Shown here: piece after piece, positions 2,192-63,547 of the stretch | Numbering within the stretch: the first letter of the stretch is position 1 | Layout of the letters: each line of letters begins with the position of its first letter | From: Gemmata palustris | Lineage (GTDB): Bacteria; Planctomycetota; Planctomycetia; Gemmatales; Gemmataceae | Assembly: GCF_017939745.1 (NCBI RefSeq) | Contig: NZ_JAGKQQ010000001.1 | Coordinates: forward strand, 8,199,299-8,263,298 | Direction: 5' to 3' | Length of the DNA stretch: 64,000 nt | Position numbers and translations under genes: made by a program | The notes under the pieces: model-generated | What the model saw: only the letters and a program-made list of their open reading frames with translations | Told to the model about the DNA's origin: nothing | Databases searched by the model: none

Positions 2192-2995
2192 TCACTTCGC
2201 CAGTTGCTCGCGCAGCCAGCCCGGTTTGTCCGTCGTGATGCTCTCCGCGCCCACTTCGATCATCTTTTTCGCCAGGTCCGCGTCGTTCACGGTCCACACG
2301 TAGAGCTTCAGGCCCGCGGACTTGATCTTCGCGGCGAACGCCTTGTCCAGCACCGCGGGTGTCGCGGAGAGGTCGAGCCCGTCGGCCTTGATCTCCTTCG
2401 CCTTCGCGATCAGTTCGTCCGCGGTGCGTGGCTTGCCCTTCGTGTTCAGGCTCACGAGCCACAGCGCTTGCAGGTCCGGGCGGGCCTTCTTGGTGGCCGC
2501 GATCACGTCCGCGTTGAAGCTGATGACGCACGTTTGTTCAGACTTCAGCTTACTCGCTTTGATGACGCGGGACATTTCCGGCACTGCTTCGGGACCGCAC
2601 TTCACCTCAATGAACGCCCGCTTGCCGGCCGGTACGGTGGCGAGCATCTCATCCAACGTCGGCAGCTTCTCGCCCGCGAACTTCGCGCCCTTCCACTTGC
2701 CCGCGTCGAGCGTCCGCAATTCTTCGAGCGTCGAATCGGCGACCTTCTTGTCCTCGCCCGCGGTGCGCTTGGTGGTCGCGTCGTGGATCACGACGAGTTT
2801 GCCGTCTTTCGTGAGGTAAATGTCGAACTCGGAGGCGTCCGCTTTCTGCTCCCACGCGAGCTTGATCGCGGCCACCGTGTTCTCCGGCGCATCAAACGAC
2901 GCCCCGCGGTGCCCTACGATTTCCACCTTCGGTTCGGCGGCGTTAACAAATCCGGCGGCGAGTAGAGTCATGAGTGCGGCGAGCGTGCGGGTCAT
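2192..2995 (-). CDS. Glycerophosphodiester phosphodiesterase
   Basis: A 267-residue secreted protein with a signal peptide (MTRTLAALMTLLAAGFVNAA). The GDPD TIM-barrel signature is clear: VEIVGHRGASFDAPENT (HR and E-N-T), SEFDIYLTKDGKLVVIHDAT (the metal ligands E-x-D and catalytic H-D), AFIEVK, and a C-terminal VWTVND followed by ESITTDKPG. The enzyme hydrolyses glycerophosphodiesters to glycerol 3-phosphate and an alcohol, here presumably in the periplasm. ATG 2995 is chosen because it places the signal peptide at the N-terminus. It is divergent from the NtrC-type regulator at 3122, so the 126 bases between them should hold both promoters. Confidence 0.93.
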   Translation of the reverse strand: MTRTLAALMTLLAAGFVNAAEPKVEIVGHRGASFDAPENTVAAIKLAWEQKADASEFDIYLTKDGKLVVIHDATTKRTAGEDKKVADSTLEELRTLDAGKWKGAKFAGEKLPTLDEMLATVPAGKRAFIEVKCGPEAVPEMSRVIKASKLKSEQTCVISFNADVIAATKKARPDLQALWLVSLNTKGKPRTADELIAKAKEIKADGLDLSATPAVLDKAFAAKIKSAGLKLYVWTVNDADLAKKMIEVGAESITTDKPGWLREQLAK

Positions 2996-3121
2996 GGCGG
3001 CTCCGTTAGGTTCTGGTGCTGTCGGTCGTTGTACTAATGGCCGGGTGGTAGAGCGGCACCCGGAGTTTCGTGTAAGATTGAAGAAAGCTACGGCCTCAAC
3101 ACCGAATCGCAGCGGACCCCC

Positions 3122-4555
3122 ATGCCTCATTCCGTACTCATCATCGACGACGAGGAACCGATCGCGTGGACGCTACGGCGGGCGTTCGAGCGCGAAAAGC
3201 ACCGCGTTTCGGTCGCGGCCACCGCGGAAGACGGGCTGATGAAGGCGCGCCAGATCGCGCCCGATGTGGTCTTCCTCGACGTTCGGCTGCCTGGCATGGA
3301 CGGCCTCACCGCGCTCGGTGAAATCAAGAAAGTGGCCCCGAGCGCGGCGGTCGTGGTCATCACCGCGCACGGGAACCTGAACACCGCGGTGAAGGCCGTC
3401 GAGGGCGGCGCGTTCGACTACCTCGCGAAACCGTTCGAGTTGGCCCAGGCGCTCGACGCCGCGAGACGGGCATTGGTCAACCGGGATACCCCCGACGACT
3501 CGGGGATCTTGCGCTCTGCGCTCGCTGAAGTGGATTCCAGTCCCGATGCGATCATCGGCCGCAGCCCCGTGATGCAGACCGTGTTCAAGCGGATCGCCCT
3601 GGTCGCCCCGGCCGCCGCGTGCGTGCTCATCACCGGGGAGAGCGGGACCGGTAAGGAACTCGTGGCCCGTGCGATCCACGCGAACAGTCCGCGCCGGCAC
3701 AACCCGTTGCTCGCGGCACACGTTGCGGCGTACAACCCGAACCTCGTCGAGAGCGAGTTATTCGGCCACATCAAAGGAGCGTTTACAGGTGCGGAGCGGT
3801 CACGCGACGGGTTGCTGAAGCTTGCCGACGGCGGTACGGTGTTCCTCGACGAACTCGCGGACATTCCCCTGCCGGTTCAGGCCAAGCTGCTCCGCGTGCT
3901 GGAGCGCCAGGAGGTGCAGCCCGTCGGCGGGAGCGAGTCGCAACTCGTGGACGTGCGCATCGTCTCGGCCACGCACGCGGACCTGTCCGCGGCCGTGCGC
4001 GAGGGGAAGTTTCGGCACGACCTCTTTTTCCGGCTGAACGTGTACCCGATTCACCTCCCGCCGCTGCGGGACCGCGTGGACGACATTCCGCTGCTCGCGG
4101 AGCACTTCCTCCGCAAATTCGGGGTGCCGAACCCCGGGAGTGCGGTGCCCGCGGAGACGCTCGCGTTCCTGAAGTCGCGCCCCTGGCCGGGCAACGTGCG
4201 CGAACTCCGCAACGCGCTCGAGCACGCCGCGATCGAATCGCGCGGCGCTGCGCTGCGGCCGGAACACTTCCCCGAACCGAGTACCGCGGCCGGGCCGACA
4301 TCGACCGCCGAGCGCCTGCGGTCGCTCGTCACCGAGTGGGTGCGCGAACGGGTCCAGGCGCTCGAGGGGCGCGAACCGGCCGACCTGCACCAGACGCTGA
4401 TCGACGCCATCGAGCCGGCGGTGCTCGACGAGGTGCTGCGCCAGGTGGACGGTAACCGTCTCGTGGCCGCGCGCTGGCTCGGCTTGGCCCGCGCGACCGT
4501 GCGCAAGCTCATCCGCAAGTACCACCCGGACACTGCCGAACCGGACGAAGATTGA
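3122..4555 (+). CDS. NtrC-family sigma-54 response regulator
   Basis: A 477-residue regulator with the full three-domain layout. The receiver domain (residues 4-120) has acidic pocket IIDDEE and phospho-acceptor D53 in VVFLDVRLPGMDG. The AAA+ sigma-54 interaction domain (about 140-375) has Walker A GESGTGKE, the sigma-54 contact loop GAFTGA in ELFGHIKGAFTGAE, Walker B GGTVFLDELAD and the R-finger region FRLNVYPIHLPPLRDR. A Fis-type helix-turn-helix closes the protein (VAARWLGLARATVRKLIRKY). It activates sigma-54 promoters after phosphorylation. No partner histidine kinase gene is adjacent, so it is an orphan here. The stop is followed 63 bases later by the S9 peptidase gene on the same strand. 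Confidence 0.96.
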   Translation: MPHSVLIIDDEEPIAWTLRRAFEREKHRVSVAATAEDGLMKARQIAPDVVFLDVRLPGMDGLTALGEIKKVAPSAAVVVITAHGNLNTAVKAVEGGAFDYLAKPFELAQALDAARRALVNRDTPDDSGILRSALAEVDSSPDAIIGRSPVMQTVFKRIALVAPAAACVLITGESGTGKELVARAIHANSPRRHNPLLAAHVAAYNPNLVESELFGHIKGAFTGAERSRDGLLKLADGGTVFLDELADIPLPVQAKLLRVLERQEVQPVGGSESQLVDVRIVSATHADLSAAVREGKFRHDLFFRLNVYPIHLPPLRDRVDDIPLLAEHFLRKFGVPNPGSAVPAETLAFLKSRPWPGNVRELRNALEHAAIESRGAALRPEHFPEPSTAAGPTSTAERLRSLVTEWVRERVQALEGREPADLHQTLIDAIEPAVLDEVLRQVDGNRLVAARWLGLARATVRKLIRKYHPDTAEPDED

Positions 4556-4618
4556 GTGTCGCGGGCGCGGGTACCCTGCCGCTATACTGGTTCCGTTAAT
4601 CCCCTCACGGAGCCGCTC

Positions 4619-6670
4619 ATGCGCCGACTCATTCCCCTCGTCGTGTTGTTCGTCGTCGTCGGGCGGCTGGCCGCCGCGCCGCCCGAAAGAACACACGACA
4701 TCGTCCCCGCCGACTACGCGACCGTAAACACTATCAACGAAATCGCGCTCTCGCCCGACGGCAAGCAAGTCGCTTACGCCCTCGCGACGTGGGACAAGAA
4801 GAGCGACCGGCGCGCCTCGGAACTGTGGGTCGTGAGCACCGACGGTAAGGGGAAGCCGACGCAACTCACGAGCGACCGCGCCAATGACCGCCACCTGAAA
4901 TGGGCCGGCGACGGCAAATCGATCTACGTCGTGTCCAATCGCGGCAAAGAAGCCAAAGCGCAAGTGTGGAGGGTGCCGCTCGACGGCAAGCCCGAAGCGG
5001 TCACGAACGTGAAGGCGGGGATCATCAATTTCGACTACGCCCCGAAGACCGACACTGTGTACTTCACCACGGACGCGACCGCGACCGACAAGGACGACTT
5101 CAGTGCGCTCCGCGAGAAGTTCGGGAAGATCGAGTACGGGCACGGCACGCGCACGGTGAGCGAACTGTTCTCCGTGAAGAAGCCGGGCAGCGAACCGGAG
5201 AAGGTGCTGGCCGATAACCGCTACATCCGCGAGTTCGCGGTCACGGAAGACGGCAAGCGGATCGCGATGGTGAGTGCGATCGACGACACGGTGGTGAAGT
5301 CCGAGGGCGAGTCGCGCGTGGACGTGTGGGCGGCCGGCAAGATCACCACTCCGCCGACGGACGTGTACCGCGCGAAGGCATCGAGCCCCTACGCTTGGCT
5401 CGAAGGGCTGGCCTGGAACCCGGACGGTACGCGGTACGCCTTTTGCGCGATTCACGATGCGTACCCGACCGAGATCATTATCGGCGAAGAGAAGGACGGT
5501 AAATGGGCGACGACGCGGATGAACCGCAACCAGGTCGCTGCACCTTCGGTGCGAGAGCAGCAGTTTCACGTGCGCGGGTACGGCAGCCCGCTGCAGTGGC
5601 TCGATAACGAATCGTTCTCGTACCTCCACGAATTCGGGGGGTACAACACGGCGCGCACTTACGCGCTGAAGGACGAAGCGACCCACGCCCCGGACGCGGA
5701 GTTCCGGGAGCGCCACGTCGTGTACGCTGCGCATTTTCAGCCCGGCCCGCACGCGCGAATCGAGTTGGTCGGTGACGCGAGCGGCTTCCCCGTTCTGAAG
5801 TTTCGTTCCAAAGAAACCGGCGAAATCGTGACGCTCGTCGACCCGAACCCGCACACCGCGGACTGGAAGCTCCCGAGCATCGAGCACGTCACCTGGAAGG
5901 CGCCGGACGGCGCGAGCGTCGGCGGACCGCTCGAACTGCCTTTCGGCTACAAGAAGGGCGACAAGCCGCTGCCGCTGGTGGTCGCGATCCACGGCGGACC
6001 GACCACATCGAGCTGCAACGACCAGCGCTTCGACGCCCACAACGGCCGGCTGTACTTCGCCGCGAAGGGTTACGCGGTGCTGTGTCCGAACTACCGCGGC
6101 TCCACCGGCTACGGCGACAAGTTCTTGACGGACCTCATCGGCAACGAGAACGACGTCGACGTGAAGGACATCGTTGCGGGAATTCAGCACCTCATCAAAG
6201 AGGGCATCGCGGACCCGGAACGCATTGCGGTGATGGGCTGGAGCAACGGCGGGTACCTCACGAACTGCCTCATCACGCTGAAGAACCCGCCGGTGAAGAT
6301 CAAAGCCGCGTCGAGCGGCGCGGGCATTTTGGATACGGTCGCGGAGTGGGGCTTCAACGACGAGCCGGCGTACCCCATCGTGTTCAAGAAGGGGCTGCCG
6401 TGGGAGCAACCGGACCTCTACAAGAAGACCTCGCCGACCTACGGCATCGGCAACGTGACGACCCCCACACTGATCCACGTCGGCGGGAACGACGACCGGT
6501 GCCCGCCGGGACACAGCCGCATGCTGTACCGCGCGCTGAAGGAGTACAAGAAGGTGCCGGTCGAACTGAACGTGTATCCGGGTCAACCGCACGGGCTGGG
6601 CACGCTCTCGTTCCGCACCGCGAAGATGGAATGGGATCTCGCGTGGTTCGAGAAGTACCTGAAGAAGTGA
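4619..6670 (+). CDS. S9 family prolyl oligopeptidase, secreted
   Basis: A 683-residue protein with a signal peptide (RLIPLVVLFVVVGRLAAA). The first two thirds form a WD40/TolB-like propeller (ISPDGK-type motif IALSPDGKQVAYAL and similar strands). The C-terminal alpha/beta hydrolase domain carries the S9 triad: nucleophile in GWSNGG, an acid in GGNDDRCPP, and histidine in GQPHGL. The oxyanion region VVAIHGGPTTSS is also present. It probably cleaves peptides in the periplasm. ATG 4619 is preferred over the in-frame ATG at 4556 because it gives a clean signal peptide. It ends in a convergent arrangement with the next gene, with a hairpin terminator between. Confidence 0.93.
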   Translation: MRRLIPLVVLFVVVGRLAAAPPERTHDIVPADYATVNTINEIALSPDGKQVAYALATWDKKSDRRASELWVVSTDGKGKPTQLTSDRANDRHLKWAGDGKSIYVVSNRGKEAKAQVWRVPLDGKPEAVTNVKAGIINFDYAPKTDTVYFTTDATATDKDDFSALREKFGKIEYGHGTRTVSELFSVKKPGSEPEKVLADNRYIREFAVTEDGKRIAMVSAIDDTVVKSEGESRVDVWAAGKITTPPTDVYRAKASSPYAWLEGLAWNPDGTRYAFCAIHDAYPTEIIIGEEKDGKWATTRMNRNQVAAPSVREQQFHVRGYGSPLQWLDNESFSYLHEFGGYNTARTYALKDEATHAPDAEFRERHVVYAAHFQPGPHARIELVGDASGFPVLKFRSKETGEIVTLVDPNPHTADWKLPSIEHVTWKAPDGASVGGPLELPFGYKKGDKPLPLVVAIHGGPTTSSCNDQRFDAHNGRLYFAAKGYAVLCPNYRGSTGYGDKFLTDLIGNENDVDVKDIVAGIQHLIKEGIADPERIAVMGWSNGGYLTNCLITLKNPPVKIKAASSGAGILDTVAEWGFNDEPAYPIVFKKGLPWEQPDLYKKTSPTYGIGNVTTPTLIHVGGNDDRCPPGHSRMLYRALKEYKKVPVELNVYPGQPHGLGTLSFRTAKMEWDLAWFEKYLKK

Positions 6671-6723
6671 AAATGGGTGCCGGGACGTAACCCCGGCTCA
6701 CGGGTGAGCCGCTTTTGAATGTA

Positions 6724-6745
6724 GCACAGGGCGGAAGCCCTGTGC
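6724..6745. terminator. Hairpin between convergent genes
   Basis: A perfect 9-bp stem (GCACAGGGC / GCCCTGTGC) with a GGAA loop lies between the stops of the S9 peptidase and the PEP-hydrolase-like gene. T-rich bases lie just to the right (CTCTTTG) and a CTTTTG lies to the left, so it could serve both strands. This is judged only from base pairing. Confidence 0.55.
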
Positions 6746-6755
6746 GCTCTTTGCC

Positions 6756-7583
6756 TCACGCCAGTTTCAGCGACTTGAACTGCTTCACGCACCCCGTGAT
6801 CGCGATTTCCGTCGGCAGGCGCTCGATGCTCGAGGCGCCGAAGAAGCCGACGATGCCCGTGGTGTGGTCGAGGACGTAGCGCACGTCGTCGGGTTCGGAG
6901 ATCGGTCCTCCGTGACACAGCACTAAAATGTCCGGGTTCACGGCTTTCGCGGCAGTAGCGAGCTCCTGCACCCGCTTCGTGGCCTCTTCGAGCGAGAGCG
7001 CCGTCTTCGCGCCGATCGCGCCCTTTGTGGTGAGCCCCATGTGGGGGATGAGGACATCGGCCCCGGCGCGCGCCATCTGCTCTGCTTCCTCGGGCGTGAA
7101 AACATACGGGCAGGTGAGCAGGTCGAGATCACGCGCGGCCTTAATCATGTCCACTTCGAGCGCGTAGCCCATGCCGGTTTCTTCCAGCCCGACGCGGAGG
7201 GTGCCGTCGAACAGTCCGACCGTGGGGAAGTTCTGCACGCCGCTGAACCCGGCATCTTTTACGTCGAGGAGGAACCGCTTCATCACGCGGAACGGGTCGG
7301 TGCCGCACACCCCCGCGAGGACCGGCGTGCGCTCCACGATCGGCAGCACCTCGCGGGCCATGTCCATGACGATCTGGTTCGCGTCGCCGTAGGGGAGCAG
7401 CCCCGCGAGCGACCCCCGCCCCGCCATGCGGAACCGGCCCGAGTTGTAAATGATGATGAGATCGATCCCGCCCATCTCCGCGCACTTGGCCGAGAGGCCG
7501 GTGCCGGCCCCGCCGCCGACGATGGGAACACCGGCCGCGACCTGGGCGCGGAACCGCGCGAGAATATCGGAACGCGATTGCAT
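6756..7583 (-). CDS. Phosphoenolpyruvate hydrolase-family TIM-barrel protein
   Basis: A 275-residue protein matching the PEP_hydrolase-like family (PF09370): an N-terminal [26 protein letters not shown] split over two conserved blocks, [19 protein letters not shown], a central [25 protein letters not shown] and a late [12 protein letters not shown]. It is cytoplasmic, with no signal peptide. In other bacteria this family is found next to, or fused with, Tm-1-like (UPF0261) proteins; here the Tm-1-like gene lies divergently 700 bp away. The exact reaction is not established for most members. The call is firm at family level. Confidence 0.88.
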
Positions 7584-55425: not shown

Positions 55426-57018
55426 TCACGACAGAAACCGGCGGAGCACGTTCTCGGTGACGCGCGAAACGGCTTCGTCTACCGGCAGCGACGCGACGAA
55501 GTTGATTGAGCCGACGGAGAACACCTCGCCGCCCGAAGGCGTGGCGAACGTGAGCATGTCGGCCCCGCCGTTGTCGGGATTGAGTCCCCTCGCAATGACA
55601 TTCACGTTCTCCGGCGAACTCGGAGATACTTTGTCCGTTTCGTGCCCGGACGCACCGCCCGGGCAGCGCATGTGCAAGCACTTCTCGCCGAATGTGTCGC
55701 CGGTCTTCAGGTCCGTGCCCGCAAAGGCCCAGTGCGATGCGTCCATCACGCGGTACGGCGCGCCGGTCATGGCGCCCGCGGGCGTGAACACGCAGCCCAG
55801 GAGATTCGCTTCGGATTCGTGGCGCATCGCGTAGCGGCTCTCGTGACCGCCCAAACCTGCGATATCCAATCCCGCGATCTTTCCGTTGTGGTGAAGTACG
55901 GCCCCTGTAGGGAGCAACTCCACCGCACAGTTCAGCCCGTTCCCGCCGAGGTACACGAGCCGACCACCCTCCTCGAACCCCCATCGCTTCACGCGCTCGT
56001 ACATGCGGCGCGTCCAGTATTCGGGGTGAACCGCGATCACCAGCACGCGGTACTGCGACAAGTCGAGCGTGCCGTTGTCGAGCTGCGTTTCGGCGAAGTA
56101 GTCGTAAGCGAACCCCTGCCGTTCGAGCCAGCCGAGGAGCCGCCATTCGGCCGGCGCGAGGTGGCACGCTTGCCGGCCCTCGATCGGGTCCGTGATCTGC
56201 TCCGTGAAGTCGATGTGGTTGAACGGTTCGGGCCGGTCGAACGAGAGCGGTGGGTAGTGATCCGCGCCCCAAGTAAAGAACCCCGCGTCGGAGTAACGCT
56301 TCAGTTCCGCGCGGGCGTTGATTGTTGGCGTTGGGGGCAGGCCGTCGGCGTGGATGTAATTGCTGCGGCCCCCGAAGTTGTTGTAGGCGTTCCAGGTGAA
56401 GTTCGATGCGAGCACCGCCATCTTCGCGGTGGGGCGCGCCGGTGCGACGATCCACGGGAAGCTGAATTGTCGGCCGCTCGCGGTCGAGGCCCGAAAGTAG
56501 TACAGCCCGCTCCGTTCCGGCCCCGCGACGTGCTGCGAATGCACCGAGTTCGCATAGCCGACTTTGTTCCACTCCGCGCCGGTCTGCGTGTAGTCGCCGT
56601 CGGGTGTGATTTGCATCACAGCGCGCGGACCGTGTTCGTCGTGCCAGCCGAGCGCCCGCACGAACTCGGGTCGCCAACCGCACCGCCACAGTTCGAGCTT
56701 GTACGGCTCGACCGAGTGAACGCGGAACTCGGATGCTTCCCCGCTGCGTACCCATTTCGGCCATGCGTACCCGAGCAACCCGTCGGAGAGCAGCCGGAAA
56801 TGGTGCGGTGTGGAGCAGGGTAATGTGACTCGACTGAACTTCGCGCCGTACCCCGGCTTCTGAAGCACCACGCGGTACTCGCCGGGCGGCAAAGCAAGGT
56901 GAACCGCCCCGGATGCGCGCGACCGCACGTCCCACGATTCGCCCGATGTACTGATGAACTCCAGCACCACATCGGGCAGCGCAACGAACCGCTCGTCGCT
57001 GACGAAACCAACCAGCAT
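55426..57018 (-). CDS. N,N-dimethylformamidase beta-subunit-like protein
   Basis: A 530-residue protein. The N-terminal about 80 residues form a carboxypeptidase-regulatory-like sandwich (VHLALPPGEYRVVLQKPGYG). The rest matches the DMFA large-subunit family: SGLYYFRAST, VLASNFTWNAYNNFGGRSNY, DYFAETQLDNG, VLVIAVHPEYWTRRMYERV and LVYLGGNGLN. In known systems this chain pairs with a small alpha subunit, but no small-subunit gene is adjacent here. The enzyme could hydrolyse formamides or a related amide. Confidence 0.85.
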   Translation of the reverse strand: MLVGFVSDERFVALPDVVLEFISTSGESWDVRSRASGAVHLALPPGEYRVVLQKPGYGAKFSRVTLPCSTPHHFRLLSDGLLGYAWPKWVRSGEASEFRVHSVEPYKLELWRCGWRPEFVRALGWHDEHGPRAVMQITPDGDYTQTGAEWNKVGYANSVHSQHVAGPERSGLYYFRASTASGRQFSFPWIVAPARPTAKMAVLASNFTWNAYNNFGGRSNYIHADGLPPTPTINARAELKRYSDAGFFTWGADHYPPLSFDRPEPFNHIDFTEQITDPIEGRQACHLAPAEWRLLGWLERQGFAYDYFAETQLDNGTLDLSQYRVLVIAVHPEYWTRRMYERVKRWGFEEGGRLVYLGGNGLNCAVELLPTGAVLHHNGKIAGLDIAGLGGHESRYAMRHESEANLLGCVFTPAGAMTGAPYRVMDASHWAFAGTDLKTGDTFGEKCLHMRCPGGASGHETDKVSPSSPENVNVIARGLNPDNGGADMLTFATPSGGEVFSVGSINFVASLPVDEAVSRVTENVLRRFLS

Positions 57019-57168
57019 GGGCTTCTCCGAACGTGTCGCGACATTTCACCAGACCGCGACTCGGAACGCGAGCGCCGAGAACCGAAAGGGCGTTATTCGT
57101 CAGTGTGGGTAGTCGGGGCGTGGGGCAGAAGAGTGTGGAAGCTGTTGGAAAAGAATTGGCTGAATGGC

Positions 57169-57224
57169 TGTGGGGCGTGTTCGGTGAAGGAGTCTCGTAA
57201 CTCCTTCACCGAACACGCCCCACA
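57169..57224. repeat. Perfect 25-bp palindrome
   Basis: Arms 57169-57193 and 57200-57224 (TGTGGGGCGTGTTCGGTGAA and onward) are exact reverse complements around a 6-base loop. It lies 26 bases after the stop of the S41 fusion gene and about 150 bases before the start of the DMFA-like gene. There is no T-run, so it is a long hairpin at the 3' end or a palindromic mobile unit. Confidence 0.85.
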
Positions 57225-57249
57225 ACTGTGCGTTCGCACGGCAAGGCGG

Positions 57250-59901
57250 TTACTTCTTGTCCTTAATCAGCCCGCGCAGGTGCTCCACGGCCTTCGCCAG
57301 TTGCTTGTCCTTGGCGGGGTCAACGACCGGGACTTTCTTGCCCGCAGGCGGGATGATTTCGAGGTCGCGACTGTACTCGAACCAGTCGGTGAGTTCCTCG
57401 CGGGTCAACTTGATCTCGAACCCGGCGTCGGGCTTCACGCCCCACTCGTCCTTCGCCTTCAGTTCCGTGGACTGCTCCATCGCGACCTTGTCGATGTTCC
57501 GGCCGCTCGGCGGGTAGTATCGGGCCACGGTGTACTTGATCCGCCCCTCGGTCTGCTCGTAGGGCTCGACGTGTTGGACGCTGCCCTTGCCGTAAGTGCG
57601 TTCGCCAATGATAGTTGCGCGACTGTGATCCTGGAGACACGCGGCGAGGATTTCGCTGGCACTCGCGCTGTTACCGTTGATGAGCACCACAATCGGGAAG
57701 CTCTTGTCGCCCGCGGCGCGACCGGAGTAGGTGTTGACCGCGCCCGCGCCGCCGCGCTCCTTCGTGGTCACGATCGCCTCGCGGCCCACGAACAGTTCGC
57801 AGATGTCGATGACGCCCTTCAGCGACCCACCGGGGTTGTTGCGCACGTCGATGACCAGGCCGTTCAGCCCGGACCGCTTCATGCTCGCCAGCGCCCGCTT
57901 GATGTCGGCCGTCGTTCCCAGGTCGTCCGAGATGGAGATGAACTGGCTCAGGTGCAGGTAGCCGATCTTGCTCTTCTCGTCGATGTAGTACGACCAGTCG
58001 TTCTTGTCGTCGCGCTTCACGCCGTGAACGGTTTCCACCATCACGTAGTTGCGGGTGAGGCGGAACACCTTCGGTTCGCTCTCGCCCTCGCGCTGGACCA
58101 CGAGCGCGACCGGGGTGTCCGGCTTGCCGGTGATGAGGTTCACCGCGTCGTCGGTCTTCAGCCCCTTGGTGCTGTGGACCTTCTTCGCGTCGTCCGGCAG
58201 CACCTTGCCCTGCTTGTCCACTTCGAGGCGAATCTCGGTGATGAGGTCGCCGGCCTGGATGCCCGCGCGGAACGCCGGGCTGCCCTTGATGGGCGTCACG
58301 ACGAGCAAACCGTCGCGGACCGCTTCGCGGCGAATGATGATGCCGACGCCGGGGAACCGGCCGAACAGTTGGCCCTGCGTGCGGAGCCACTCTTCCTTGG
58401 TGAAGTACCCGGCGTAGGGGTCGTGGAGCGCCCCGATGAGGGCACGAATGGTCACGTCGGCGGCCTTTTCGCCGTCGAGGTCTTCGCGCTTGCCGAGCCG
58501 GAGCCGGGCCTCGACGAGCAGTTCCCTGCCGCGCTCGTCGCTGATGTCTTTGGGGGCCTTGAGCGCGTCGGCGATGTCGGCGGGGATCGCTTCATCGGCC
58601 TCGGTGAACACGCCGCGGATCGCCAGCGCGGTCAGTTCGCCGCGCGACAGCGGCTTGATGTACTCGGCCGACAGTTTGGAGATCGCCGGGGCGACTTTCT
58701 TGGCGAATTCGGTCGCGTCCTCGGTCGGCAGTTTCAGCCCTTCGAGGAGCTTCTTGCGCGCGCCTTCGAGGTCGGCCACGGTACCGCCATCGGCGAGCTT
58801 CTGGTACTCCTTGCGGAGCGCCTGCGACCACTTCAGCTTCGGCATCTGGAACAGGAGGGTGACCGCTTCTTTCGCGAGGTCCGGCGTGAGTTTGGTGTCC
58901 TTGGTCAGCGCCTCAACAGTTTCGATCCGCTTCTTGACGGTCGCGGTCTCGGCGGGGTTGCGCGTGACCCAGAACTTGCTGGCCCCGCGGCCGACGAAGA
59001 CCGGTTCGAGTTCCTTTTCCTTGTCGGTCTTGCCCGTCGCGCGGGCGGCGGTGGGGATCTCTTTTTCCAGGTACTTGAGCAGCTCGCGCGTGGTGACGAT
59101 GCCGTCCGATTCGTAGCCCTCGTTGTACGGGGCCTGGTCCGCTTTACCGCCGAGCCCGGCAGAGAGCACCGAGTAGAACAGCCCGTGATCGCCCTTCGTG
59201 AGCGCGTCCTGGAACGGCGGGTTGCCGAGGACCAGCACGCGGTTGGGCGGGAGCATGTTGTCGTCTTTTTCGTCGCCGAAGACGAGCTTCATGATCTCGC
59301 CCCAACTCGGCTCCACGATCTTCTCGGTCCCGGCGTCGATCCCGCCCCGGTACTGAATGTCCATCATCAGGAGCACGTTCTGGTTCTTCAGCTTCTTGAA
59401 CGCCGGTTCCAGATCGGTGATCTGGAGGGCGGTCTTGGCCCGCTCCTTCACGGTGCTGTCGGAAGTGAAGATGCACGGCTTGTCGCCGGCGGAGGTGCCG
59501 CGCCCGAAGAACGCGAGGATCACCGTGTCTTCCGGTCCGGTGGACGCGACCGCCGTTTCGACTGCCTTCACGACCGCTTCACGGGTGGCATCGGCCGAGA
59601 GGAGCAGTTTCGCGCGGTCCGCGGAAGCACCGAGGTACTTCTTGTCGGTGAGCATCGCGTGGAGCGCTTTGGCATCGGCGTCGGCCGTCGGGCGCGGGCT
59701 GATGGCCTTGTCCTTGAACTCGCCGACGCCGACGACGACGACGTAAGGGCCTTGCGCTTTGGTGGCGGCCTCGCGCCCCTCCGCGGCCGAAGCCCGCAGT
59801 TGCGGACCGACCGCCAGCGCTACCGCGGCGATTGCGCCCAGAATCCACACGCGCGCGTTCATCAAGTTATCCTCTCCTGTAGGCCTGGCACGGCCGGTCA
59901 C
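57250..59901 (-). CDS. Pseudo-caspase fused to CtpA-type S41 protease
   Basis: An 883-residue secreted protein with a signal peptide (about residues 1-27). Residues 38-305 have a caspase-like (C14) layout: YVVVVGVGEFKD, EDTVILAFFGRGTS, VLLMMDIQYRGG, GLFYSVLSAGLGGKADQAPY and DGIVTTRELLKYL. The catalytic His of SGHG is R121 (FGRG) and the Cys of DxCHS is Q170, so it is dead. Residues 500-810 are a CtpA/S41 protease with a PDZ segment (GSPAFRAGIQAGDLITEI) and catalytic motifs NSASASEIL (Ser, about 748) and YGKGSVQ (Lys, about 774). It cleaves proteins in the periplasm; the dead domain may bind substrates or regulate. Confidence 0.88.
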   Translation of the reverse strand: MTGRARPTGEDNLMNARVWILGAIAAVALAVGPQLRASAAEGREAATKAQGPYVVVVGVGEFKDKAISPRPTADADAKALHAMLTDKKYLGASADRAKLLLSADATREAVVKAVETAVASTGPEDTVILAFFGRGTSAGDKPCIFTSDSTVKERAKTALQITDLEPAFKKLKNQNVLLMMDIQYRGGIDAGTEKIVEPSWGEIMKLVFGDEKDDNMLPPNRVLVLGNPPFQDALTKGDHGLFYSVLSAGLGGKADQAPYNEGYESDGIVTTRELLKYLEKEIPTAARATGKTDKEKELEPVFVGRGASKFWVTRNPAETATVKKRIETVEALTKDTKLTPDLAKEAVTLLFQMPKLKWSQALRKEYQKLADGGTVADLEGARKKLLEGLKLPTEDATEFAKKVAPAISKLSAEYIKPLSRGELTALAIRGVFTEADEAIPADIADALKAPKDISDERGRELLVEARLRLGKREDLDGEKAADVTIRALIGALHDPYAGYFTKEEWLRTQGQLFGRFPGVGIIIRREAVRDGLLVVTPIKGSPAFRAGIQAGDLITEIRLEVDKQGKVLPDDAKKVHSTKGLKTDDAVNLITGKPDTPVALVVQREGESEPKVFRLTRNYVMVETVHGVKRDDKNDWSYYIDEKSKIGYLHLSQFISISDDLGTTADIKRALASMKRSGLNGLVIDVRNNPGGSLKGVIDICELFVGREAIVTTKERGGAGAVNTYSGRAAGDKSFPIVVLINGNSASASEILAACLQDHSRATIIGERTYGKGSVQHVEPYEQTEGRIKYTVARYYPPSGRNIDKVAMEQSTELKAKDEWGVKPDAGFEIKLTREELTDWFEYSRDLEIIPPAGKKVPVVDPAKDKQLAKAVEHLRGLIKDKK

Positions 59902-60321
59902 TAATTCTGGCCATTGTCACCATTGAGCCGAACCCGTCAATCGCATTTACACGGCGGTTACGCCGGAGGCGCGAGGCCCATCGGTGGGGTGGGATACAGG
60001 CGATTGCGGATGTTCTCACTGCGGAATCGGTGCTTTTGGCGTGCGCATTTGCCGCAAGTTTCGGGCCGATGAATCCAACGAAGATCGAGCCCGGATCGGT
60101 GTACCTCGCGGCTAACATTTGCTAACAATTCTGGCCCGGCTGATTTGTTAGCCGATTGCCGCAATTGCAAAGGCGGCAGCTAGTTATGGCAAAGAAATTC
60201 GGGTGGCCATTGTTAGCCGCTGGTTTCTCCTGGGACCGCGGGCATCTTGCCCGCCCTTCTGCTTATGGCAGCGAAGGCGATAAAGATGCCCGCGGTCCCA
60301 GGGTAACAGAGATACGACGCT
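59902..60321. other. Intergenic region with hairpin near its right end
   Basis: 420 bases between the S41 fusion start and the aminotransferase stop. No plausible gene is present. The left half should hold the promoter of the fusion gene. An inverted repeat at 60231-60300 is listed separately. Confidence 0.65.
60231..60300. repeat. 18-bp perfect inverted repeat
   Basis: Arms 60231-60248 (TGGGACCGCGGGCATCTT) and 60283-60300 are exact reverse complements around 34 bases that include a second GGGC-rich partial pairing. It lies 21 bases after the aminotransferase stop, so it may act as a 3' hairpin on that transcript. Confidence 0.85.
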
Positions 60322-61458
60322 TCACTTCCTCTTTGCCAACGTGCGAAGGATCTCGATACCGCGGTGAAGCGTTTCATCGGTGGCGGCGTAGGACACGCGG
60401 AAGTGCGTGTCGCGGCCGCTGAACACGTTGCCCGGGATCACGAGCAGGTTGTGTTTGACCGCTTCCGTGACGAATTCGGTCGCCGTTCCCCACGGCGCCT
60501 TCGGGTACAGGTAGAAGGCCCCGCCCGGCGCCACGAACTCGTACACCCCCCTCAACCCCTCCATCAACAAGTCGCGTTTGCGCTTGTAGTCCGCGACGAT
60601 CCCGGACACGTCAAAATCCAACGCGGCAATGCCGCCCCATTGTACGATGCTCGGTGCGCACACAAATGTACATTGCTGCAGTTTCGCCATTTCCTGGATC
60701 AATCGCTTCGGGCCGTGTGCCCAGCCCAGGCGCCAACCGGTGATGCCGTAGGTCTTCCCGAAGCCCTCGATCACCAGCACGTTCGGGTCGTAAGACGCGG
60801 GCGATTGCGGGGCGCCGTCGTAGTGAAATCCGCGGTAAATCTCGTCGCTGATGAGGAGGATACCGCGGTCGCGTGCGAGTTCGGCCAGTCCCTTTTGAGT
60901 GGCCGCATCGAGTACCGCACCCGTGGGGTTCGAGGGGGACGAGAGCACGATGGCTTTCGTCCGCGGGGTGATCGCGGCGGCGACTTTGTCAACATCGAGC
61001 CGGAAGTCCGGGTAAGTGTCCACTGTCACGAGCTTCCCGCCCGCGAGCGCGACCACGTTCGGGTACGCGACGAAGTACGGGTCCGCGGTGATGACCTCGT
61101 CGCCCGGATTCACGACCGCGAGCAGCGCGAGCACCAACCCGCCACTGGTGCCGCTCGTGACCAACACGTCGCGCTCGTAGCCTGGGGCCACCTGTGGCGG
61201 AGCGGGGAAGCGGGCTTGTGCGTCCGCGAGTAACCGCGAGCACAGTTCGGGGATGCCCTGCGTGACGGTGTAGCCGTTGCGGTTCCCGTCGATGGCCGCC
61301 TTCGCAGCGTTCTTGATGGAGTCGGGCACGTCGAAGTGCGGTTGCCCGATGCTGAGGTTGACCGGGTCTTTCAGCGACCGGGCCAACTCGAAGACCTTCC
61401 GCACGCCGGACACTTCGACCGCTCGCGTGCGGTCCGCTAGAAACGATTCGGGGAACAC
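60322..61458 (-). CDS. PLP-dependent class I/II aminotransferase
   Basis: A 378-residue enzyme with the fold-type I pattern: DPVNLSIGQPHFDVPDSI, NGYTVTQGIPEL, VTSGTSGGLVLALLAVVNPG, AIVLSSPSNPTGAVLD, ILLISDEIYRGF and the PLP-lysine motif EGFGKTYGITGWRLGW. It is probably an aspartate- or aromatic-type aminotransferase; the substrate is not fixed by sequence. GTG 61458 is chosen because AGGAG precedes it at 6 bases and the family starts there; ATG 61491 is the alternative. Confidence 0.9.
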   Translation of the reverse strand: MFPESFLADRTRAVEVSGVRKVFELARSLKDPVNLSIGQPHFDVPDSIKNAAKAAIDGNRNGYTVTQGIPELCSRLLADAQARFPAPPQVAPGYERDVLVTSGTSGGLVLALLAVVNPGDEVITADPYFVAYPNVVALAGGKLVTVDTYPDFRLDVDKVAAAITPRTKAIVLSSPSNPTGAVLDAATQKGLAELARDRGILLISDEIYRGFHYDGAPQSPASYDPNVLVIEGFGKTYGITGWRLGWAHGPKRLIQEMAKLQQCTFVCAPSIVQWGGIAALDFDVSGIVADYKRKRDLLMEGLRGVYEFVAPGGAFYLYPKAPWGTATEFVTEAVKHNLLVIPGNVFSGRDTHFRVSYAATDETLHRGIEILRTLAKRK

Positions 61459-61491
61459 GGCGACTCCTGGCGAACCCGCCCGCGAGGGCAA

Positions 61492-62065: not shown

Positions 62066-63547
62066 CTGTACTTTCCGCGAAGTTATAGGCGGTTGGCGTA
62101 AGTTGTGGGGCCGGGAGTAGACGAGTGCCGGCCCGTCCGGGAGGATGGCGTTACCACACGACCTCCCGACCCGAACGGACGCGGCCATGCCATCTTCGCA
62201 TACTCCGGCCCCTCGGTGCCACTGGTTTTCAACCCTGGCCAAGGCTCTGGACCCGCGGTCCGGGCGGCGGCTCGCGGTCCTGTTCCTCGGGATCATCCTG
62301 ACCCGCGGGCGCCGCACCCTCGCGGGTTGGATCCGGGCCGCCGGGCTGTCGCCCCAGTACCGCCGGTGCTACGCCACGGCCGCGGCCGTGGGGCGCCGCA
62401 CCGAGCGTATCGCCATGCGGTTGTTGGTCGAGGTTCTCAAGCCCATGGTGGCCGGTGCGCCTCGGGTGGTGCTGGCCCTCGACGACACCCCGACGGAGCG
62501 GTACGGGCCCAAGGTTCGAGGGGCCGGGGCGCACCACAACCCGACACCCGGGCCGGCCGGGGGCCCGTTCGTGTACGGGCACGTGTGGGTGGTCCTCGGG
62601 TTGTTGGTGGGACACCCCCTCGGGGGGATTGTGGCCCTCCCCCTGTTGGCCCGCCTGTACATCCGCCGCAAAGATCTCGGGGCCATCCCCGGGCCGGACC
62701 GGCCCGAGTTCGCAACCAAGTTGGTGATGGCCGTGGACCTGGTCCGGTGGGCCCACGGGTGGCTGAAGACGTGGGGCCGGGCCGTGTGGGTGGTGGCCGA
62801 CGGGGCGTACGCCAAGGCCCCGGTGCTCAAGGCCCTACTCGCGCTCCGGGTGACCATGGTGAGCCGGCTCCGCAAGGACGCGGCCCTGTGGACGGTGCCC
62901 CCGGCCCGCGATCCGAGCGCCCGCGGGCGGCCCCGCGTGTACGGGGAGCAGCGGGTGTCGCTCGCCAAGCGGGCCGGGCACAAGGGCGGGTGGACCACGG
63001 GCACGTTCACCCTGTATGGGAAGCCCGTGGAGAAGCGGTACAAGACGTTCGAGGCCACGTGGCGGCCGGCCGGGGGCACGATCCGGGTCGTCCTGGTGGA
63101 CGAACCCAAGGGGTGGGTCGCGTTCTTCTGCACGGACCCCACGGCCTCCGTGGCCGACATCCTGGGCCTGATCGCGGACCGGTTCTCGTTGGAAACCTGT
63201 TTTCGAGATCTCAAACAGGTCGCGGGCGCCGGTCACCAGCAGGTACGCGGGGTCGCGTCGAACGTGGGATGCTTCCACCTGTGTGCGTGGTCCCTCACGC
63301 TCACCGAGGTGTGGGCCTGGAACCAGAAGGCGGATGAACTGGTGGCCCATCGGGCGGCCTCCCCGTGGGACGATCCGAACCGGCGCCCGAGCCACGCGGA
63401 CAAGCGCCGGGCCTGGCAACGGGAGCTGCTGGCCGAGGAAATTCAGGCCGTTGTGGGCGAGCACCACGACCCCGCGAGAATCCGCGCCCTCGCGCACCGG
63501 TGCCTGGATCTGGCTGCTTAAACGCTATAAGTTCGCGGAAAGTACAG
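62066..63547 (+). mobile_element. IS701/IS4-like insertion sequence, 1482 bp
   Basis: The terminal inverted repeats (CTGTACTTTCCGCGAA at the left end) match at 22 of the first 23 positions. The target duplication is ACCGTT (62060-62065 and 63548-63553); CAG before both copies extends identity to 9 bp but overlaps the right end. The interrupted gene rejoins exactly without one duplicate. The family call comes from the transposase. Confidence 0.85.
62145..63521 (+). CDS. DDE transposase (IS701/DDE_5-like)
   Basis: A 458-residue transposase with the DDE superfamily pattern: VVLALDDTPTERYGPKVRGA (first Asp), WVVADGAYAKAPVLKALLA (second Asp) and SLETCFRDLKQVAGAGHQQV (Glu, in the C-terminal segment). 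It lies wholly inside the IS at 62066-63547. The frame is intact and full-length, so the element may still be active. ATG 62187 is a possible alternative start. Confidence 0.88.
   Translation: MALPHDLPTRTDAAMPSSHTPAPRCHWFSTLAKALDPRSGRRLAVLFLGIILTRGRRTLAGWIRAAGLSPQYRRCYATAAAVGRRTERIAMRLLVEVLKPMVAGAPRVVLALDDTPTERYGPKVRGAGAHHNPTPGPAGGPFVYGHVWVVLGLLVGHPLGGIVALPLLARLYIRRKDLGAIPGPDRPEFATKLVMAVDLVRWAHGWLKTWGRAVWVVADGAYAKAPVLKALLALRVTMVSRLRKDAALWTVPPARDPSARGRPRVYGEQRVSLAKRAGHKGGWTTGTFTLYGKPVEKRYKTFEATWRPAGGTIRVVLVDEPKGWVAFFCTDPTASVADILGLIADRFSLETCFRDLKQVAGAGHQQVRGVASNVGCFHLCAWSLTLTEVWAWNQKADELVAHRAASPWDDPNRRPSHADKRRAWQRELLAEEIQAVVGEHHDPARIRALAHRCLDLAA

Follow-up and report, generated by a model that had tools for sequence, protein, structure and literature searches.

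Two groups of described proteins come closest to the gene reported here. Pseudo-orthocaspases are caspase homologues whose p20 region lacks the catalytic His-Cys dyad and keeps the aspartates of the S1 pocket, and they are described as losses in several lineages (PMC6426788; Synechocystis SyOC, PMC7889975). According to PMC6426788, 858 of 9,994 orthocaspases are inactive; 90% of these pseudo-orthocaspases are alphaproteobacterial or cyanobacterial, with Tyr-Ser as the commonest pair in place of the dyad. Among planctomycete caspase homologues, just 64% were stated to retain the dyad in 2012 (PMC3501461). Inactive caspases of bacterial conflict systems were proposed to be dominant-negative regulators or peptide-binding domains (PMC7159879), and cFLIP likewise has an inactive caspase domain with a regulatory role (PMC8195603). 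C-terminal processing peptidases (CTPs; Prc, CtpA, CtpB; TIGR00225) form the second group. They commonly need an adaptor or PDZ-mediated activation, and NlpI and LbcA are described as separate adaptor lipoproteins that bring substrates to a CTP or activate it (PMC5686067, PMC11021448); for the hexameric CtpA of Helicobacter pylori, activation is reported as adaptor-independent (PMC12749690). Here we describe a gene of Gemmata palustris (Planctomycetota; Gemmatales) which joins a caspase-like domain without catalytic residues to an intact CTP on one chain. We hold this identity, including the dead-enzyme part, to be close to certain. The gene lies on the minus strand of a stretch of 64,000 nucleotides analysed as a whole (contig NZ_JAGKQQ010000001.1, positions 8,199,299–8,263,298; hereafter, the window).

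In its PDZ and S41 core and in its Ser-Lys-Gln spacing, the fusion protein is like the known CTPs, whereas the solved CTPs that it matched have no caspase domain. In contrast to the Tyr-Ser type of pseudo-orthocaspase, its commonest pairs are Gln-Asn and Arg-Gln, and it has an S41 partner. The proposed adaptor would do the same job as NlpI and LbcA but is fused to the protease and has a caspase fold. The inactive caspases of conflict systems belong to multigene systems dependent on nucleoside triphosphates, whereas the protein here is probably exported as a fusion. In animals, cFLIP acts on a caspase; the dead domain here shares its chain with a serine protease unrelated to it. The main text of PMC6426788 has no occurrence of Planctomycetes, S41 or PDZ, and no report of a caspase-S41 fusion was found in the literature searched, whose reach ended at subscription papers. 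Pseudo-orthocaspases, CTPs and low conservation of the dyad in planctomycetes are known already. The order-wide fusion to S41, with its pattern of residues lost, kept and gained, was not found in the literature searched.

Along the chain, a probable signal peptide is followed by the caspase (C14) domain, a helical link, a PDZ domain and a Prc/CtpA-type S41 peptidase (Table 1). The peptidase matched Pfam Peptidase_S41 (residues 632–793, E 6.1e-46) and NCBIfam TIGR00225 (prc, C-terminal processing peptidase; 253.2 against a cut-off of 218.6). The nearest solved sequences were entries titled 'Carboxyl-terminal protease', including CtpA of H. pylori (the nearest) and of Pseudomonas. A fold search with the full-length predicted model returned only CTPs among the 50 rows shown. 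The Ser-Lys spacing is 25, as in H. pylori CtpA (S300/K325/Q329 in the PDB title). Judged from its residues, the active site Ser734-Lys759-Gln763 is intact; an earlier note on this DNA had said so of Ser and Lys, and both were present in 84 of 84 aligned copies reaching them.

These counts derive from 98 homologue loci. Twelve were left out of the alignment of 86 rows: L001–L006, in which proteins already included recur, the partial L007, the truncated L010, the broken L093 and L094, and L097 and L098, which are S41 paralogues without a caspase domain. Two of the 86 rows (L095 and L096) end before the S41 site, hence n = 84. The caspase domain was counted in 97 copies, which comprise the 86 aligned ones, nine more, one of them truncated where its contig stops, and the caspase domains of the broken L093 and L094. 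Entropy ranks, S41 counts and the comparison of discriminating columns refer to the 86 rows.

The N-terminal domain matched Pfam Peptidase_C14 over residues 41–169 (E 4.5e-7, 30.2 bits against a cut-off of 21.4). At E 0.01, this family was matched by 67 of the 86 members. Alignment of the 86-domain profile with a profile of intact-dyad planctomycete caspase domains (33 of the 36 available) by hhalign gave a probability of 100 and E 2.6e-44, with G-R-G placed on G-H-G and D-I-Q on D-A-C. The same 86-domain profile matched metacaspases in PDB (best E 2.5e-5). An AlphaFold2 model of the domain, built from a seven-row alignment, had a mean predicted local distance difference test (pLDDT) of 61.7 and a predicted template modelling score of 0.69; about the first 130 of 283 residues were confident, and the rest was largely weak, with much of the second half below pLDDT 50. 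The caspase fold that the earlier note had read from motifs was borne out by this model: in Foldseek it matched MALT1 with E 2.9e-8, and the 50 matches shown were MALT1, metacaspases, caspases and the Geobacter protein GSU0716, which is also matched by the caspase profile. Realignment of the model gave Z 18.0 with metacaspase 4 (root-mean-square deviation 3.1 over 203 residues) and Z 15.4 with caspase-7 (3.0 over 178 residues).

In place of the caspase motifs xxGHG and DxCHSG, the protein has FFGRG and DIQYRG. The earlier note had described these replacements and named R121 and Q170 for the lost His and Cys; its numbering is correct for the 870-residue protein counted from the ATG start, and hhalign put R121 on His and Q170 on Cys. 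Throughout the 97 Gemmatales copies, position 121 was occupied by Q (38), R (37), E (9), N (7), S (5) or A (1), and position 170 by N (42), Q (17), H (16), A (9), D (7), S (4), T (1) or Y (1). Residue pairs at the two positions were of 17 kinds, the commonest being Gln-Asn (21) and Arg-Gln (17) of 86 copies. In the three fusions from another order of the class the pairs were S/C, S/S and R/H. The suggestion that His and Cys might always be lost held for both residues in all 97 Gemmatales copies and for His in the other order (absent in 3/3); it failed there for Cys, which is absent in only two of the three. Non-fused planctomycete relatives had both H and C at these columns in 36 of 42 domain rows (47 rows minus five from the fusions of the other order), and two more C14 domains in the genome of the window both have the dyad intact. 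In this respect the domain corresponds to a pseudo-orthocaspase, i.e., a p20 with a substituted dyad, and the dyad of active orthocaspases was seen in 0 of 97 copies. As far as sequence can tell, the caspase match with its catalytic substitutions is far above chance and conserved through Gemmatales, and the reading of the domain as a catalytically dead pseudo-enzyme is supported.

A whole-protein search, which did not require the caspase domain, gave some match in all 102 genomes of the order. With the caspase-domain profile, a strong match (E ≤4.1e-82) was obtained in 77 of 84 sampled Gemmatales genomes, and in 68 of the 70 that are at least 90% complete and at most 5% contaminated; the domain was lacking in G002, G007, G017, G062, G064, G095 and G098. 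In 75 of the 77 genomes a single open frame covers the fusion, S41 part included. The two broken cases are G096, with an in-frame stop, and G006, where the gene is split over two frames; one match in G061 also has an in-frame stop. Another order of the class, with the family label f96, has the fusion in all three genomes. The search of other planctomycetes proposed in the earlier note thus led to the fusion throughout Gemmatales and in one other order. Elsewhere in the class and phylum samples, the loci read contained only caspases without S41; these loci were top matches with at least 170 filled columns and a flank of 1.5 kb or a few kb, some of them from one genus. Among the matches listed for 297 class genomes, the complete link (165 positions) was present in Gemmatales and in the three f96 genomes alone, and among those listed for 294 phylum genomes, which include no other Gemmatales, it was found only in the genome of the window. 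Outside the phylum, only contigs and plasmids were scanned, which tests absence weakly; 78 plasmid records matched, none covering 80% of the query.

Two arrangements were observed among the non-fused relatives. In L162 (genome G444, about 2900–7100), which is among the best-scoring intact relatives, tandem intact-dyad caspase genes are followed by WD40-like repeats recognized by eye. The single long protein of L164 (G452) has three caspase-like stretches in a row; the dyad of the first is intact, and those that follow are partly degenerate.

S41 proteins that lack a caspase domain are also matched by the second half of the link; examples are G012:C197, G016:C32, G029:C526, G399:C10 and G401:C68, the open frames of which are 441–630 residues long. 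This match makes the fusion look as if a CTP had acquired a caspase domain together with a short spacer. Ordinary S41 paralogues match the query from residue 357 or later only. In an unrooted tree, 29 Gemmatales rows (of the 86) and the three of the other order were separated from 42 others by one branch with support 99/97. Most simply, the caspase domains of the fusions share one origin before the split of Gemmatales and the other order, to judge from this tree.

Over the 11 pairs that could be measured, the ratio of nonsynonymous to synonymous substitution rates (dN/dS) was 0.034–0.381 for the caspase domain and 0.022–0.324 for PDZ-S41; the helical link, with 0.046–0.672, is looser than both (Nei-Gojobori method; 12 pairs tried, one saturated; some pairs share a sequence and are not independent). 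These ratios indicate that the fusion protein is held under purifying selection and that the caspase domain is not decaying, since its dN/dS resembles that of the S41 part. A decaying domain was rejected on these grounds, and the broken copies elsewhere look like isolated losses or sequencing errors.

In the reference structures, the S1 pocket holds Asp95 and Asp211 of TbMCA2 or Asp365 and Asp462 of MALT1; these aspartates sit on alpha-1 and loop L4, and the Gly beside the catalytic His is described as common to all families (PMC4357240). From the alignment, we take Asp63, Asp168 and Gly122 as counterparts of the S1 aspartates and the conserved Gly. Ranked by entropy over 263 columns, Asp63 was 2nd, Gly122 3rd and Asp168 6th, with positions 121 and 170 being 141st and 188th. 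The columns that best discriminate the 86 Gemmatales rows from the 36 intact rows were Arg57 (95% vs. Leu 89%) and Arg141 (95% vs. Leu 67%); Glu251 was present in 98% vs. Asn 56%. All three discriminate better than the lost dyad itself. Arg57 stands six residues N-terminal of Asp63. Non-fused relatives have, in consensus, a DxNxDG...E loop at the place of the acidic loop of residues 242–260, and the loop of the fusion is longer than theirs.

Since nearly all relatives examined carry the same fusion, the role of the dead domain is probably to guide substrates to the live protease or to hold them for it. In our analysis the most likely version of this reading, whose chances we put a little short of even, is that the caspase domain would be a built-in adaptor, i.e., a non-catalytic peptide binder, of an envelope CTP. 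A groove with both S1 aspartates and without catalytic residues would take up a peptide and leave it uncut, a basic residue probably being the point of contact. It would hold a substrate or an activating partner beside the PDZ gate, and the S41 site would then degrade or trim the held substrate from its C-terminus. Pseudo-orthocaspases, which likewise keep the S1 aspartates, are said in PMC6426788 to be able to accommodate basic substrates. More tentatively, the protein may be a two-module protease that reads and then cuts, in which an ancient caspase stripped of catalysis would serve as a residue-specific peptide reader and provide a tail-specific envelope protease with a second recognition site in cis, this one specific for sequence. 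In Gemmatales, the change of Leu57 to Arg may have given the pocket a new specificity. Throughout, the step from anatomy to function is one that we infer, and we likewise infer the control or targeting of the protease by the dead domain that the earlier note had suggested from the sequence.

Several observations weigh against the adaptor reading. The aspartates are also kept by relatives with an intact dyad (Asp63 in 34 of 35 with a letter at that position, Asp168 in 36/36) and by other inactive rows (6/6), and they may be retained for the fold rather than for binding. Asp63, Gly122, Arg57 and Arg141 are traits of Gemmatales and not essentials of the architecture, because they are scarce in the three fusions of the other order (1/3, 1/3, 1/3 and 0/3, respectively; Asp168 3/3). 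Arg57 also occurs in three of 35 intact relatives, including one from the genome of the window. The S1 residue Arg87 of caspase-7 presumably lies at a distance matching that between Arg57 and Asp63. Because Arg57 would occupy this spot, the pocket of Gemmatales may be plugged, zwitterionic or of another specificity. The position of the lost Cys (170) falls where the domain model turns weak, and the full-length model (mean pLDDT 48.8) is too poor for domain packing. The export reading comes from a hydrophobicity scan whose threshold was exceeded by the N-terminal stretch of the query and by that of 58 of the 86 copies. The gene neighbourhood of 21 loci gave no functional hint apart from an upstream aminotransferase.

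That the resemblance to caspases arose by chance would fit the 19 of 86 members without a Pfam C14 match and the weak second half of the AlphaFold2 model, but the hhalign E-value, the confinement of the 50 Foldseek matches shown to caspase-type proteins and GSU0716, and the Z-score with metacaspase 4 make it negligible. Slightly more credible, and still highly improbable, is a domain that remains an enzyme with a relocated nucleophile such as Cys130. Close to the lost catalytic site, 66 of 86 copies have this residue, and its frequency is 0 in the intact-dyad relatives aligned there. A substitute Cys-His pair, however, is not general (His226 in 51/86, both residues in 41/86), and with the variety of pairs at 121/170 a relocated Cys-His site was rejected.

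Of the readings that accept a dead domain, a scaffold is unlikely but has to be taken seriously. The domain would then only stabilize or oligomerize the protease, with the groove closed, perhaps by a salt bridge of Arg57 with Asp63/Asp168, and with the aspartates kept for folding. Such a role agrees with the equal conservation of Asp63 and Asp168 in active and other inactive relatives, and the replacement of Leu by Arg57 and Arg141 in most Gemmatales copies suggests a new internal or interface contact; CTPs do assemble, as in the H. pylori CtpA hexamer with its adaptor-independent activation (PMC12749690). However, paralogues matching only from residue 357 share the second half of the link, so the caspase domain is not needed for their assembly, and near-universal retention is less expected of a mere spacer. 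We consider it distinctly less likely that the domain is a switch, clamping the S41 site in an inhibitory or allosteric way until a ligand, or calcium at the loop of residues 242–260, releases it. Its acidic residues D242, E251, D253 and E260 are each present in at least 84 of 86 copies, the loop has its counterpart in non-fused relatives, and PDZ domains are described as stimulatory or inhibitory in CTPs (PMC6686036). But in the fusion the first ligand position of the EF-hand-like loop never varies from Gly, so that calcium may no longer bind; no Pfam EF-hand match was found among the 86 members at E 0.01, and no interface was predicted.

Table 1. Features of the fusion gene and its surroundings (window coordinates; residue numbers of the 870-residue protein).
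Feature	Position	Strand	Basis or occurrence
Coding sequence of the fusion protein, 870 residues plus stop	57250–59862	-	List of open reading frames; start from Shine-Dalgarno-like site and relatives
Shine-Dalgarno-like AGGAGAGGA upstream of ATG	59870–59878	-	Sequence
Probable Sec signal peptide, residues 1–26 (cleavage between ASA and AE)	59785–59862	-	Hydrophobic N-terminus; cleavage site by eye
Pseudo-caspase (C14) domain, residues 38–300	58963–59751	-	Pfam C14, hhalign, AlphaFold2 model, fold searches
Arg57, residue of Gemmatales fusions	59692–59694	-	R 89, K 7 of 97; intact-dyad relatives: Leu 31, Arg 3 of 35
Asp63, counterpart of the alpha-1 S1-pocket Asp of metacaspase/paracaspase	59674–59676	-	97/97; rank 2 of 263
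Arg121 at the catalytic His position	59500–59502	-	Never His in 97 copies
Cys130, common in the fusions, close to the lost catalytic site	59473–59475	-	66/86 copies
Arg141, residue of Gemmatales fusions	59440–59442	-	R 93/97; intact-dyad relatives: Leu 24, Arg 1 of 36
Asp168, Asp of D-x-C, second S1-pocket Asp	59359–59361	-	96/97; rank 6 of 263
Gln170 at the catalytic Cys position	59353–59355	-	Never Cys in 97 copies
EF-hand-like acidic loop, residues 242–260	59083–59139	-	D242, E251, D253, E260 each at least 84/86
Helical link, residues 311–460	58483–58932	-	Second half resembles N-terminal part of ordinary S41 paralogues
PDZ domain, residues about 506–589	58096–58347	-	Pfam
S41 peptidase core, residues 632–793	57484–57969	-	Pfam, NCBIfam, solved-structure matches
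Ser734, S41 nucleophile	57661–57663	-	84/84 aligned copies reaching the site
Lys759, S41 general base	57586–57588	-	84/84 aligned copies
Gln763, third CTP catalytic residue	57574–57576	-	81/84 aligned copies
Perfect 25-bp inverted repeat, 6-nt loop	57169–57224	.	25 nt past the stop codon; single place in the genome
Class I/II aminotransferase gene	60322–61491	-	Upstream of the fusion gene, same strand

The open reading frame of the fusion gene extends over 57250–59901 on the minus strand, and its coding part was placed at 57250–59862. A GTG start at 59901 was rejected in favour of the ATG at 59860–59862, which is the likely start because AGGAGAGGA stands just upstream and close relatives have a start codon, followed by NARxW, at the same place; the script used for the starts of relatives favoured positions near the start of the query. 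A long open reading frame on the opposite strand (56899–59904) was taken as a by-product of codon use rich in guanine and cytosine. At the N-terminus, a 19-residue window from residue 1 has a mean hydrophobicity of 1.69, and the protein is probably exported to the cell envelope, as its N-terminal sequence suggests. The inverted repeat beyond the stop codon is a possible terminator, in which no T-run was seen by eye.

In 10 of 21 loci, the window among them, the fusion gene has a gene of the aminotransferase cluster (blastp) upstream on its own strand; the Pfam identification refers to the copies of the window and L226. Beyond it, L226 has a protein kinase gene, a DUF3754 gene and a divergent PutA-like gene, and blastp clusters place such genes there in some of the other loci too. 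An operon hinting at function was rejected, as the aminotransferase, kinase, DUF3754 and PutA-like neighbours yielded none. Downstream of the fusion gene, a protein with DMFA2_C (N,N-dimethylformamidase beta-subunit-like) is encoded at 55426–57018 on the minus strand, and a transposase-like open reading frame was noticed by eye at 62145–63521 on the plus strand, towards the end of the window.

Bacteria commonly carry inactive homologues of caspases. Here, the purpose of a pseudo-caspase is directly testable, because the dead domain is tied to a measurable protease and is conserved through nearly all of an order, with clear residues to mutate. To our knowledge, it would be the first time that a pseudo-caspase is seen to act as substrate receptor for a serine protease unrelated to it. 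If the adaptor reading is true, it would show that CTPs are able to carry their own adaptor.

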